Shown here: one piece after another, positions 39,901-49,943 of the stretch | Numbering within the stretch: the first letter of the stretch is position 1 | Layout: every line of letters begins with the position of its first letter | Source of the DNA: Phycisphaerales bacterium AB-hyl4 | GTDB lineage: Bacteria > Planctomycetota > Phycisphaerae > Phycisphaerales > Phycisphaeraceae | Direction: 5' to 3' | DNA: 64,000 bases | Assembly (NCBI GenBank): GCA_041821185.1 | Contig: JBGUBD010000013.1 | Coordinates: forward strand, 45,346 to 109,345 | The notes under the pieces: model-generated | What the model was told of the DNA's origin: nothing | The model's database searches: none | The model's input: the letters and a program-made list of their open reading frames with translations, nothing else | Translations under genes and position numbers: made by a program

Positions 39901-41076
39901 ATGGAAATCAAGCTCAAGTACGGCATAAACCCGAATCAGTCGTTCGCCCGCGTGGTCGTGGAAGGCGACAAAAGCCCTCTGGCCGTCCGCAACGGCAGCC
40001 CGAGTTACATCAATATCCTAGACGGACTGCGAGGCTGGCAGCTTGTCCGGGAATTGAAGCAGGCCACAGGCAAGGCGGCGGCGGCTTCCTATAAACACGT
40101 CAGCCCGGCAGGCGTCGCGGTGGCCGGGGAGTTGAGCGAGCAGTTTCGCCAGGCGTTTTTCGTTCCCGACGATATGACGCTGTCGCCGATCGCCTCGGCC
40201 TACGCCAAGGCGCGCAGCTCGGATCGCGTGGCCAGCTTCGGCGATTTCATCAGCGTATCGGACAAGGTGGATGTGAGCCTCGCCCGGCTGATCAAGCCGG
40301 AAGTCTCGGACGGCATCATCGCGCCGGACTATGACGCCGAGGCCTTGGAACTGTTGCAAAGCAAAAAAGGTGGCAATTACGTCATCCTCCAGATTGATCC
40401 GGACTGGCAACCGACAGACACCGAGTATCGGCTTGAGTTCGGCCTTCGACTTGAGCAAAGCTACAACGATGCGGTGATCGATCGCGAATTGATCTCCTCC
40501 AACGTGGTGACGCAGAACCGCACGCTTTCCGACGAAGCGATCGAGACGCTCCTGGTCACGACGATCACGCTCAAGCACACACAGTCGAACTCGGTGGCGT
40601 TGGGCTACCAAGGGCAGGCGGTGGGCATCGGAGCCGGTCAGCAGTCGCGGATCGCCTGTACTCGACTCGCGTGCGAAAAGATGGACCGCTGGATGTTGGC
40701 CCAGCACCCGCACGCAGCGCAGTTGCAATACAAAGAGACCGTGCCACGATCGGAAAAGGCGAATCTGGTTGATGCGCTATTGCGGTGGTACGAGTTGGAC
40801 GTGGCTGAGCGAAGCCTGCTGCAAAGCCAGCTCACGAAGCCCGCCCAGCCGATCACGCTGGACGAGCGTACGCAGTGGCTGAAGAACTTTGGTGACGTGT
40901 CGATGAGTTCCGACGCTTTCTTCCCGTTCCGCGACAACCTGGATCGCTCGGCTCGCAGCGGCGTGAAATACGTAGCGCAGCCTGGCGGGTCGAAGCGTGA
41001 TGCGGACGTGATCGCCGCGGCTGACCAGCATGGCATGGTGATGGTCGCCACGGGCCTACGTCTGTTTCTGCATTGA
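39901..41076 (+). CDS. Standalone AICAR transformylase (PurH C-terminal half)
   Basis: 391 aa. Transfers a formyl group to AICAR in the ninth step of purine synthesis. The signatures of the AICARFT part of PurH are present: LKYGINPNQ at the start, SPSYINILDGLRGWQLVREL, ASYKHVSPAGVAVAG (with the catalytic Lys-His pair) and SDGIIAPDYDAEAL. The N-terminal IMP cyclohydrolase (MGS) domain of bifunctional PurH is absent, and the ATG at 39901 is the only sensible start. The frame is open upstream across tRNA-Val, but this is not coding. IMP cyclohydrolase must be supplied by another gene. Confidence 0.92.
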   Translation: MEIKLKYGINPNQSFARVVVEGDKSPLAVRNGSPSYINILDGLRGWQLVRELKQATGKAAAASYKHVSPAGVAVAGELSEQFRQAFFVPDDMTLSPIASAYAKARSSDRVASFGDFISVSDKVDVSLARLIKPEVSDGIIAPDYDAEALELLQSKKGGNYVILQIDPDWQPTDTEYRLEFGLRLEQSYNDAVIDRELISSNVVTQNRTLSDEAIETLLVTTITLKHTQSNSVALGYQGQAVGIGAGQQSRIACTRLACEKMDRWMLAQHPHAAQLQYKETVPRSEKANLVDALLRWYELDVAERSLLQSQLTKPAQPITLDERTQWLKNFGDVSMSSDAFFPFRDNLDRSARSGVKYVAQPGGSKRDADVIAAADQHGMVMVATGLRLFLH

Positions 41077-42762
41077 CCCCCACCGATGACGCACGCCGAC
41101 CAAGGCATTACAAACGCCGTTATTTGGATCGACGGGCAGCGGACAAGCCGCCCCAGACTTGTTAGAATGCCGCGTCGAGTTGTGGGTCAGCCGAGTGTTA
41201 AGCACGACTGAGCAAAAGAAGTGAAGTGTGCGTCTTTGCTCGACCCCAGTTCTACTGGAGAGGTGTCCGAGTGGCTGAAGGAGCCGGTTTCGAAAACCGG
41301 TGTAGTGCTTTGCACTACCGGGGGTTCGAATCCCCCCCTCTCCGCTTCCCGCGTCCGTCGATGCGGAGCAAACCCCGTTATTTACGGGGTTTTCTTTTGC
41401 GCCTCCATCGTCGGCCGTCATCGCCACGCGCGGCCGTTCGTCCGTGGCTATCCGTGGGGTATCGCCAGCAATCCCGACAATCGGGCCGACAATTTGCGGG
41501 GCGTCGGCGCTGCCATGCGTGCCGGTGGCCTGCTGCTGCTGTCCCTCGGCCGGCGTGCTCAGGTCAGGCAAGCCAGCAATCGCCGCGTGTTCCTGCTCTC
41601 GCAGCGTGTGGCTGTAGCGGTCCATGGTGAGCGTGATGGTGCTATGCCGTGCCAGTGCTTGAGCTACCTTCGGATGCACGCCGCTGCTGGCAAGGTTGGT
41701 GATGAAGGTATGCCGCAGGGCGTGGAAGTCGACCACGCGGCCGGCGTCGTCGCGGTAGTCGATCCCTGCCGCGTGCAGGTCGCCTCGCAGCATCCGAGCC
41801 GTGTGCCCCTTGTGCGGCATGGCGAACGCCGGCGCTGCAGGTGCTTTGCGGGCCAGGTGGTCGGCAATCATCGCGGCCGTGTCGGGTCGCATCGGCAGCA
41901 CGTCCCGCCGGCGACGCTTGGAGTAGCCCGCTTCCACCGCCACCGTGGGCGGGTCGGCCTGCATGTCGAAGCTCGAGCGCGTCAGGCTGCGAAGCTCTGA
42001 GGCCCGCAGGCCGGTTTCCAGTGCCAGGCGATACGCGAGCCCCCGCTCATGGCCGGGCATGCCCTCGCGGTCTGCCCCGCCCTTGGCAGCCGTCAGCAGC
42101 CGCCGGGCCTCGTCAACGCTCAACGCGCGGCGGTCGTGCCGGCGGTCGGTGCGGACGTTCAGCCCGTCCAGATGCTCGACGGGGCTTTCAGCTGCCCGGC
42201 CGTCGCGAACCATCCACCGGCAGAACTGCTTGAACGCGGCAAGGTAGAAGTTGAAGGTTTGGGCACTGATCCCCCGCTTTACCTTCTCATCGCCGGCCTT
42301 GGTTTTCACCTTCTGATCCTGCCGCTGATCGTGCAGCCAACGGTGGGCCCGGCTCGGCTGAATGTCGGACCACTTCACGAACCGGCAGCCCTTGGCCATG
42401 CGTCCCGCTCGCCCCGCCACAAGCTGCGCGTGGGCTTCGGTGTTGCCCTTGGCCACCAGCGCCGCCTCGAAGTCGGCCAGGTGATCGGCCAGCAGCTTTG
42501 CCTCAGCATCGCGGCGGGCGTCGACAATGCCCCACTTGAGCAGTGCCTTGCGGATGCGGGCGGGCCACGTCTTCATCGCCATGGCTACGGCCGGGTCGGG
42601 GCGTTCGTGGGCCTCGCGGCTCTGTACCAGCCGGCGAAGGTTTCGCGATAGCTCGACGGTCGCGCCCTTGTCGGTGAAGCCGGCGAGCGTATGCGTCACG
42701 CCAAGGTGGTCGGTAAAGTCGATGCTGTAGCTTTTGCCGGTGGTCCGCTTGTGGATTCGCAT
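41056..42762 (-). CDS. Tyrosine integrase whose C-terminus is swapped by integration
   Basis: 568 aa in the integrated state. The core-binding domain (about 80-190) and a complete catalytic domain are present: Arg253 in ETGLRASEL, His347/Arg350 in HALRH, His373 in ARHSTI and the nucleophile Tyr383 in MDRYSH. From about residue 472 the frame enters the 63-bp attachment repeat inside tRNA-Ser (opposite strand) and then chromosomal DNA to a stop at 41056. In the excised circle the same frame would pass through the repeat at 49943-49881 and on to a TAG at 49667, giving 563 aa with another tail. Catalytic residues are unaffected. It adjoins a Cro-like gene, which may act as a directionality factor. 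Confidence 0.88.
   Translation of the reverse strand: MRIHKRTTGKSYSIDFTDHLGVTHTLAGFTDKGATVELSRNLRRLVQSREAHERPDPAVAMAMKTWPARIRKALLKWGIVDARRDAEAKLLADHLADFEAALVAKGNTEAHAQLVAGRAGRMAKGCRFVKWSDIQPSRAHRWLHDQRQDQKVKTKAGDEKVKRGISAQTFNFYLAAFKQFCRWMVRDGRAAESPVEHLDGLNVRTDRRHDRRALSVDEARRLLTAAKGGADREGMPGHERGLAYRLALETGLRASELRSLTRSSFDMQADPPTVAVEAGYSKRRRRDVLPMRPDTAAMIADHLARKAPAAPAFAMPHKGHTARMLRGDLHAAGIDYRDDAGRVVDFHALRHTFITNLASSGVHPKVAQALARHSTITLTMDRYSHTLREQEHAAIAGLPDLSTPAEGQQQQATGTHGSADAPQIVGPIVGIAGDTPRIATDERPRVAMTADDGGAKENPVNNGVCSASTDAGSGEGGIRTPGSAKHYTGFRNRLLQPLGHLSSRTGVEQRRTLHFFCSVVLNTRLTHNSTRHSNKSGAACPLPVDPNNGVCNALVGVRHRWGSMQKQT
41257..41344 (+). tRNA. tRNA-Ser(CGA), integration target
   Basis: 88-base class II tRNA: acceptor GGAGAGG with CCTCTCC, anticodon stem around TTCGAAA (anticodon CGA), long variable arm with the GTAGTGC / GCACTAC stem, T-arm GGGTTCGAATCCC, discriminator G. 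CCA is not encoded. Its 3' part from the anticodon stem onward is duplicated at 49881-49943, marking it as the attachment site of the element to its right; the tRNA itself remains intact. Confidence 0.97.
41285..41347 (+). repeat. Left attachment repeat (attL), 63 bp
   Basis: Identical over 63 bases to 49881-49943. It begins at the anticodon stem of tRNA-Ser and ends three bases past the tRNA. It bounds the integrated element on the left. Confidence 0.95.
41370..41398 (+). terminator. Element-supplied terminator for tRNA-Ser
   Basis: AAACCCCGT-TATTT-ACGGGGTTT followed by TCTTTT, just inside attL. It replaces the original chromosomal terminator now displaced to 49944-49986. Confidence 0.85.
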
Positions 42763-42766
42763 AGCG

Positions 42767-49305: not shown

Positions 49306-49666
49306 CGAAGTTACTCCCTTCGGTGATGGCTCGCCCTGCCAGCGGTCGCACGCCGGCGGGGCATTTGGATCGGCTGCCCACGCGGACAGCACTACTTGCG
49401 ATTCTTCATAAAAACAGCTTCAAAACCTCCTGAAAAACACGCGTTACTTAACGGTCGGTATCCAGCCGACCCGATTTTTCGCGATTTTTGGCCCCCTATC
49501 CCCTGCACCGCCCCCGCCCCTTGGCCTGCTGCCACGCTCAGCCCTGCCGCTGCTGGCGGTGGTCAATGCTCGCCGTTGCAGCCGGAAGCCGCAGCGGGGC
49601 TTGTGTTGGATCGTGGGCGGTGCATTCATGCGGATAGCTCCCCGGCGTCGGCCGGTGGTGATCGGT
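49306..49666. other. Element right-end non-coding region
   Basis: 361 bases between the first operon gene and the displaced integrase tail. It has A/T-rich patches around 49400-49500 and a perfect minus-strand AGGAGG (complement of 49426-49431) with no proper start codon at normal distance. It likely holds the operon promoter and possibly the origin; I cannot pinpoint either. Confidence 0.45.
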
Positions 49667-49880
49667 CTACTCGCTGCTTGTCAGTGTCAGGATTGCGGCC
49701 CGCTTCGCCGGCGACAGGCAGGCCAGCGCCTCGACGTGGGCGACGATGGCGGCGCGTTCATGCTCAGGCAGGCAGGCCACCGCCTCGGCGATCGCGGCCG
49801 AATCCCGACAAGATGGCCGACATTCTGGCGGGGCATCATCACAACGGGGGGCGTCGCCGGCGGTTACGTCACTACGCGAA
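49667..49880 (-). other. Displaced C-terminal tail of the element integrase
   Basis: In frame with the integrase when attL and attR are recombined. It codes for SRSDVTAG followed by a helical tail (SAAIAEAVACLPEHERAAIV, then HVEALACLSPAKRAAILTL) and a TAG at 49667. It has no own start in the integrated state. The tail resembles the C-terminal helices of related planctomycete integrases. Confidence 0.75.
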
Positions 49881-49943
49881 CGGTTTCGAAAACCGGTGTA
49901 GTGCTTTGCACTACCGGGGGTTCGAATCCCCCCCTCTCCGCTT
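49881..49943 (+). repeat. Right attachment repeat (attR), 63 bp
   Basis: Identical over 63 bases to 41285-41347. It is a non-functional partial copy of tRNA-Ser (anticodon stem to 3' end). Confidence 0.95.

Follow-up and report, generated by a model that had tools for sequence, protein, structure and literature searches.

The attachment site of an integrated element in Phycisphaerales bacterium AB-hyl4, and of many related elements, almost certainly lies inside the coding sequence of the element's own integrase, with the catalytic domain on one side of it and a conserved C-terminal module on the other, as judged from sequence. With the att block in this position, integration severs the module, whereas the catalytic domain stays whole. 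The position of the module suggests that it may license integration and that its loss may favour the integrated state, a proposal to which we give slightly less than even weight; the architecture and the function of the module, taken as a single statement, seem to us somewhat more probable than not.

The window, the whole stretch of DNA that was analysed, comprised 64,000 nt (assembly GCA_041821185.1, contig JBGUBD010000013.1, forward strand, 45,346-109,345) and is numbered here from its first letter. The integrated element of 8.6 kb (41285-49943) was bounded by an exact direct repeat of 63 nt at 41285-41347 (attL) and 49881-49943 (attR), with a spacing of 8596, and the repeated block consisted of the 3' part of a tRNA-Ser plus TT. 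As in tRNA-targeting islands, an intact tRNA-Ser(CGA) was restored at attL (41257-41345, plus strand, ARAGORN), its 5' part (41257-41284) being chromosomal and the remainder coming from the att block, and the identical attR block represented the displaced 3' part of the tRNA. The element also encoded, all on the minus strand, an HTH repressor-like protein immediately upstream of int (42767-42985; Pfam, PHROG), an AAA_25/replicative-helicase-like protein (43125-44537; Pfam, PHROG), a tail tape-measure-like protein (45271-46761; phrog_9483, 3e-62) and an HTH_17/excisionase-like protein (48424-48639; Pfam; PHROG phrog_66, 5.9e-12), the last of which is a candidate directionality factor. Additionally, another integrase of this family, a partial one (27935-28699, plus strand), read in frame into an antisense tRNA-Asp (28451-28525, minus strand), and a search of the window upstream of it found no matching att piece or module.

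The tyrosine integrase of the element (41056-42762, minus strand, 568 aa in the integrated reading) was assigned by ORF, Pfam and alignment. Its Phage_integrase domain spanned residues 214-387 (PF00589, 64.9 bits against a curated cut-off of 27.1) and was the sole domain at E<=0.01, PF16795 (Phage_integr_3) being absent. Residues R253, K282, H347, R350, H373 and Y383 were invariant in an alignment of 25 sequences that included the window integrase; we take them to be the catalytic set, with residue 383 as the tyrosine, and all of these putative catalytic residues were located upstream of the att block. From the coordinates, attL lay in frame within the integrase and encoded residues 472-493, with codon 493 straddling the edge of the block, and the string 'GEGGIRTPG...' of the protein was the tRNA-Ser gene read antisense.

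The preliminary description of this DNA had the integrase frame passing through attL into chromosomal DNA and running in phase through attR, and both statements were confirmed: the frame was open across the two copies of the 63-nt block and, beyond attR, as far as a TAG at 49667-49669. The severed 3' end of the gene (49667-49880, minus strand, 70 codons plus the stop) joins the integrase in frame only in the circle, giving a form of 563 aa with a 70-aa tail encoded by the element. The integrated form ended in a 75-aa chromosomal tail (41056-41284, minus strand) that was arbitrary and did not contain the module. The module itself, identified by profile and alignment at 49670-49798 (minus strand), was in the window a diverged variant, apparently doubled and without the Trp (AAIAEAVACLPEHERAAIVAHVEALACLSPAKRAAILTL..). 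When scored with a leave-one-out profile, the circle tail reached 19.7 bits, the integrated tail -0.2 and the best of 20 shuffles 1.5. Because of these scores and the recurrence of the layout in relatives, the circle tail looks native, as had been supposed, and to an extent that exceeds chance.

The same arrangement was observed across the family. A tRNA gene was entered in frame by 61 of 92 members (54 antisense, 7 sense, 16 isotypes), the antisense pieces being translated in all three frames. The C-terminal module had about 30 residues, with the consensus 'DLxxVVxAWPxLPxxIRxAILALV', and was predicted to form two helices; the linker, which contains the att-encoded peptide, was predicted to be disordered. 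Leave-one-out profile scores, with >=10 bits counted as the module, were obtained for both frames of 40 loci whose att ends were both paired and whose int was open across the block (tRNA detected in 34, not in 6). This set was reduced from 44 paired rows by leaving out L056 and L057, in which int ends before the block, the second L066, a tandem with the module already in its integrated frame, and L072, whose att pairing was considered spurious; the set did not include loci in which int was classed as ending ahead of a tRNA. The circle frame contained the module in 31/40 loci and the integrated tail in 0/40 (integrated maximum 2.2 bits), so homologues matched the tail at 49667-49880 and not the chromosomal one. 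The integrated tails had a median of 9.5 codons (n=40), the count starting within the block at its final codons. The earlier idea that integration exchanges the C-terminus was supported, with one qualification: the tail does change after the catalytic Tyr, but the integrated tail is arbitrary and usually soon ended, so that the module is lost and two functional C-termini are not swapped.

Upstream of int, 24 module matches at >=14 bits were found on the plus strand and none on the minus strand. All 24 adjoined a repeated copy of the att site of their own integrase, 21 of these sequences having been profile training data. In chromosomes, all 41 matches at >=30 bits fell within frames no longer than 261 aa, separate from any intact integrase. 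Nine of the 40 paired loci scored below 10 bits: the module was missing in L063, the tails appeared truncated in L086, L067 and L090, the module was out of phase in L083, and it was diverged yet recognisable by eye in L092, L093, L103 and L113. One of the 31 module-positive loci, L107, had poor att pairing (24/33 identical), and module matches also occurred in wrong frames or flanks in L076, L083, L065 and L062.

Furthermore, the frozen profile was applied to DNA outside the training data. All six matches at >=12 bits in 831,729 further bases adjoined a copy of the integrase's own site, as did all six in 20 fresh loci (five recognised by alignment and L291 through a peptide in common), which gave 12/12 combined. 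The replication rule fixed beforehand held in only 2/4, the misses being L289, with the module in another phase, and L282, with no module; in the replication, a search over about 16 kb gave no att piece above threshold for 10 of the 14 integrases that entered a tRNA. Unbroken natural genes of the order int-att-module were present on at least three IMG/VR contigs (L126, L127 and L157), plus the tandem L066. No complete tRNA was found in the examined stretches of the three contigs, and a terminase gene was present in L126, the sole one of the three examined for this. Viral contigs searched with the single window protein gave no confirmed match, and the family alignment gave 216, of which the best 80 were used. 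Plasmid records had no match and phage records a single weak one, in a Thermus phage. Two module tails scanned against Pfam had no match within cut-offs, and five whole proteins matched only generic recombinase models in NCBIfam, below curated cut-offs.

As the sequences show, a single uninterrupted gene in the circular or viral form specifies the N-terminal and the catalytic domain of the integrase, then a long linker, part of which is translated from a piece of a tRNA gene, and finally the module. Insertion into the tRNA gene cuts the integrase gene between the catalytic domain and the module. The integrase at attL retains its catalytic domain and acquires an arbitrary and usually short new tail, and the module coding sequence is left at the opposite end of the element, detached from its gene. 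In the mechanism that we propose, excision would restore the full gene. The module may render the circular form competent for integration, for example by promoting synapsis or the assembly of a tetramer, or by preventing attL x attR; once the reaction has removed the module, a second round would be disfavoured and the integrated state stabilised. For excision, the element would then depend either on the truncated enzyme together with an Xis-like partner or on full-length enzyme that an incoming copy supplies. A little more tentatively still, the module could be a directionality domain that is intrinsic to the integrase, is encoded beyond the enzyme's own att site and is deleted from the gene by the reaction that the enzyme catalyses; circular and integrated elements would then encode functionally different enzymes (integrating versus non-integrating or excising), and with every change of tRNA target the new tRNA piece would supply another linker peptide, whichever its frame or strand.

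The closest known systems are the archaeal suicidal integrases and the mycobacteriophage switches with attP in a repressor gene. In the former (SSV1, pTN3 and pT26-2 types), att is likewise within int, often at a tRNA, and integration partitions the gene. According to the part of PMC8371274 concerned with them, Int(C) holds the catalytic domain and loses the N-terminal multimerising part, whereas in the planctomycete integrases the catalytic domain remains whole, only the C-terminal module is lost and the hosts are bacteria. The likeness to SSV-type integrases noted in the preliminary description, with an intact catalytic domain, was borne out, since the att block is inside the int coding sequence but residues 214-387, upstream of 472-493, are not parted from the N-terminal part. 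A one-way lock, in which the truncated Int is inactive and excision depends on full-length Int of another copy, would follow the logic proposed for the archaeal enzymes in the same part of that source (PMC8371274), and we consider it rather unlikely here. Two family integrases occur on one stretch in each of L066, L067 and L064 and could provide full-length or hybrid enzyme. Nevertheless, the integrated form still has an intact catalytic core and an intact chain as far as the linker, excisionase-like HTH proteins are encoded on the window element, and one fused form is on the terminase-bearing contig, and a temperate phage with no way out of its host chromosome would be badly designed.

Severing could also be non-regulatory, with a linker that tolerates any open sequence and a module on which either every Int function depends or none does, which we regard as unlikely. 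Which peptide the att block encodes does seem hardly to matter, because the tRNA pieces are read in all antisense frames and a few in sense, and compact att-int modules have been proposed, in the portion of PMC8371274 on this subject, to favour exchange among elements. However, a module needed for everything would leave integrated copies unable to excise, and for a module needed for nothing the conservation in so many lineages would be unexpected. Moreover, 15 of 24 integrases with no observed tRNA/att entry stopped 2-18 residues past the core and had no module, and only the unsevered genes L072 (12.4 bits) and L075 (6.4 bits) retained a weak one; therefore, module and severance go together.

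In mycobacteriophage integration-dependent immunity (BPs and relatives), a tRNA attP inside a phage gene causes the C-terminus to be removed on integration; the relevant sections of PMC4557955 and PMC9262239 describe a cut repressor gene that loses an ssrA-like degron, with no RDF evident in them. A circle form with a C-terminal degradation signal, from which integration would release a stabilised Int, has very similar gene logic and yet is improbable. The conserved part is internal and helical, the extreme C-termini of the circle tails vary, and AA ends 1/40 of them, a sequence criterion by which an ssrA-like degron in the severed part was disfavoured. Here, by contrast, attP is in int and the repressor-like gene is separate, integration removes a conserved helical module, and the window element carries Xis-like genes.

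Spurious ORFs over the antisense strands of tRNA genes are common, and the chromosomal tail in the window is exactly such an ORF, but chance read-through of a lost stop, or a module that belongs to some small unrelated gene lying at the end of the element, has a very low probability: phase was preserved in most paired loci, natural fused genes exist in viral contigs, 40/40 int frames were open across the blocks (about 1.4e-10 under a random-frame null, with rows picked as open and non-independent), and ahead of the module an ATG was missing in 20/31 tails and any ATG/GTG/TTG in 12/31. Read-through was rejected by the profile scores, the own-site repeats beside module matches and the paired-locus counts, and the separate gene was disfavoured by the fused genes and the start-codon-free tails.

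More distant parallels exist. In ICEKp1 and ICEclc the integrase output also depends on the integrated or excised state, and the int promoter switch described in the pertinent part of PMC13023037 alters transcription, not protein. Islander-type tRNA-targeting islands share the tyrosine integrase, the restored tRNA and the displaced fragment at the far end. To our knowledge, their att site has not been described as part of the int coding sequence. In some phages, such as the Sfi21 type of S. thermophilus, attP overlaps the 3' end of int, and among them we know of no case in which it touches more than the terminal codons or is followed by a conserved module.

The directionality with which phages and islands integrate is commonly attributed to a dedicated Xis/RDF or to the switching of a promoter; in these elements, the reaction of the integrase rewrites the integrase gene itself. 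Bacteria thereby join archaea as hosts of self-partitioned integrases, here with the catalytic domain retained. The odd tRNA-like C-termini of planctomycete integrases in chromosomes are explained by the truncated protein being read there, with the full C-terminus encoded at the opposite end of the element. The module also provides a sequence rule for locating the second boundary of such islands, and the full-length and truncated forms offer a natural enzyme pair for studying what sets direction.

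The 8.6-kb integrated element of the window (41285-49943), for which the nature of a phage satellite is suggested, is bounded by two copies of its att block, a perfect 63-nt direct repeat (41285-41347 and 49881-49943) that contains the attL-side tRNA-Ser(CGA) gene (41257-41345, plus strand) from the anticodon stem through the 3' end, followed by TT. The integrase gene, read on the minus strand from 42762, passed through the first copy and reached a stop at 41056 in the integrated form (568 aa); in the circle form, obtained as a virtual join, it ended at 49667 in the other end of the element (563 aa). 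The two alternative products proposed in the preliminary description, with the attachment site inside the integrase frame, could both be reconstructed from the repeat. The att block encoded residues 472-493, and the sequence depended on the state only beyond 493. The Phage_integrase domain (PF00589, 64.9 bits) occupied residues 214-387, and R253, K282, H347, R350, H373 and Y383, which we take to be the catalytic set, were invariant across 25 aligned sequences. Since all of these lie upstream of the att block, the catalytic part is unaltered by integration, as had been claimed. In the linker right after the catalytic core, a short motif with the consensus TGT (alignment A1) or ATGT (alignment A3) was observed behind the LPDL stretch and upstream of the att block. 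The element also carries a tail tape-measure-like gene (45271-46761, minus strand); a PHROGs scan of ten ORFs from this element revealed no other virion family, apart from a weak hit of a small HTH protein (48424-48639) to the terminase small subunit, and this gene content is what suggests a phage satellite. A distinct tyrosine integrase, whose N-terminal domain is SAM-like, is encoded immediately outside attR (50501-51676, plus strand).

The circle frame of each related locus was read by seeking a second att block copy upstream of the integrase and continuing the reading frame from there. The C-termini obtained in this way (circle tails) shared a terminal module with the rough consensus DLxxVVxAWPxLPxxIRxAILALV (alignment A2), which received no name when two of the tails were scanned against Pfam. 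In a first set of 26 loci, scored with leave-one-out profiles, 19 circle tails exceeded 15 bits and the chromosomal, integrated tails peaked at 2.3; when the same stretch was read in wrong frames, only L083 and L076 passed 12 bits. The circle tail of the window scored 19.7 bits, versus 1.5 for the best shuffle. When the table was extended to 40 paired loci (ARAGORN detected a tRNA in 34 and none in 6), the module was matched at 10 bits or more in 31 circle frames and in none of the integrated frames (maximum 2.2), so that homologues aligned with the circle tail and not with the chromosomal one, as the earlier proposal had required. One of the 31, L107, rests on a poor att pairing (24/33 identical). 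At the nine loci below 10 bits, a diverged module was visible by eye in L092, L093, L103 and L113; in L083 the module was out of phase, L086, L067 and L090 appeared truncated, and L063 had none in its circle frame. As read from these frames, integration was shown to sever the module, so that the catalytic part ends in an arbitrary tail that is usually short. In the right, chromosomal flanks of L065 (19.1 bits) and L062 (21.6 bits), a module-like match in another frame is perhaps the end of another element. The IMG/VR integrase L132 continues through a tRNA-like peptide into a long tail with no module visible by eye, possibly another kind of severed C-terminus.

The circle frame is more than a virtual join, because unbroken genes were found. 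Three IMG/VR sequences (L126, L127 and L157, among the best 80 of 216 matches) encoded the catalytic domain, a tRNA-derived peptide and the module in one frame, with no complete tRNA in the sequenced stretches examined. We read the piece inserted in L126 as the 3' portion of a tRNA-Arg (anticodon TCT), and the contig of L126, the one of the three that was examined for this gene, encodes a terminase large subunit. Continuity was also seen in the tandem array L066, where the inner integrase runs on into the module of the next element as a natural hybrid full-length frame. The window's own genome has a second severed element (contig C24, L271/L003), in which both att copies, the integrase and the in-phase module (23.9 bits) lie within less than 5 kb of one contig. 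Modelled with AlphaFold2 from 13 sequences (mean pLDDT 74), the protein of L126 had an integrase-like body, with Foldseek matches to tyrosine recombinases including Brujita Int, XerA, Tn1549 Int and lambda Int. Helices were predicted at 528-536 and 542-559, and residues 413-525, including the att-encoded part, had very low confidence and were taken as probably disordered.

When the profile was run upstream of the integrases, 24 plus-strand and no minus-strand matches of at least 14 bits were obtained, all adjoining a repeat of that integrase's own site, although 21 of these sequences had trained the profile. A frozen profile applied to 831,729 bases further upstream at 17 loci gave six matches (at least 12 bits), each adjoining the matching tRNA piece. 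Four were in phase with an open frame; in L047 the phase was kept and the tRNA copy contained a stop; L107 was gapped. Genome-wide, the module was detected in 47 of 149 genomes (E≤0.01). A strict T-arm motif preceded it in the same open frame at 18 of 30 loci examined from that search (4 of them training loci), versus 3 of 30 with the motif within 400 nt downstream; for all 41 matches of at least 30 bits, the open frame was no longer than 261 aa, shorter than an intact integrase of this kind. A rule fixed beforehand was then applied to 20 fresh loci. Of 14 integrases that entered a tRNA, just four were accompanied by an above-threshold att piece at a distance of up to about 16 kb; the module was in phase in two, in another phase in L289 and absent in L282, and occurred in none of the four integrated tails. 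This strict result is weak in number, and larger elements may be the reason for the few pairs. Post hoc, from the module side, six matches (at least 12 bits) were found at the fresh loci. All were in the integrase orientation, and next to each was a copy of the site used by its integrase, as judged by alignment for five and by a shared peptide for L291; peptide comparison put five of the six in phase.

Integrase matches were present in 291 of 392 genomes (E≤0.001, weak ones counted), taken as Planctomycetota from three named relatives, one of them Phycisphaeraceae. The 80 retrieved stretches of up to 20 kb and other loci gave 92 distinct integrases whose core was complete, the window's among them; five more were left out as incomplete. 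In-frame entry into a tRNA gene was found for 54 on the opposite strand and 7 on the same strand, with 16 isotypes altogether; a stop preceded the tRNA in 6 and 3, respectively, and for 22 no tRNA was detected, some of these having tRNA-like peptides. Antisense tRNA pieces were read in all three frames. The sense orientation, seen in 4 of the 40 paired loci, was noted for L010, L041, L076, L083 and L281. The att block of L281 is the tRNA 5' half up to the anticodon, a side that, as far as we know, is unusual for integration into a tRNA. Two family integrases lie close by on one stretch in L066, L067 and L064. In the window, a second, partial family integrase (27935-28699, plus strand) runs in frame into an antisense tRNA-Asp (28451-28525, minus strand), with neither a matching att piece nor a module upstream within the window.

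No description of this integrase-att-module layout was found among the top-listed records of the accessible literature, which excludes most subscription journals, on att sites lying within integrase genes, integrases of planctomycetes, changes at the C-terminus or switches of a related type. The nearest bacterial analogue is integration-dependent immunity (PMC4557955, PMC9262239), and ICEKp1 offers one at the promoter level (PMC13023037). A review of archaeal recombinases terms suicidal integrases exclusive to archaea (PMC8371274).

Regarding the mechanism, the module would license integration or block the reverse reaction, and its removal would stabilise the integrated state; excision would then need a Xis-like partner or the full-length enzyme in trans. 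Xis-like genes are present. The main rival is a complete suicide lock. A degron, as in mycobacteriophage repressors, fits poorly, since an AA ending was found in just 1 of 40 circle tails. A tree of 87 integrases comprised 65 that overlap a tRNA or att block, 20 that do not and 2 unclear ones; the overlap label was scattered, with at least 12 changes forced by the starred branches, the bootstrap being not yet settled; the layout is thus old, repeatedly gained, or both. Among 24 integrases not seen entering a tRNA or att block, 15 ended 2-18 residues past the core and lacked the module, L072 (12.4 bits) and L075 (6.4 bits) kept a weak one in an unsevered gene, and the remaining 7 had longer tails without it, several with tRNA-like peptides. 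This association of the module with severance points to the switch as the purpose of the module.
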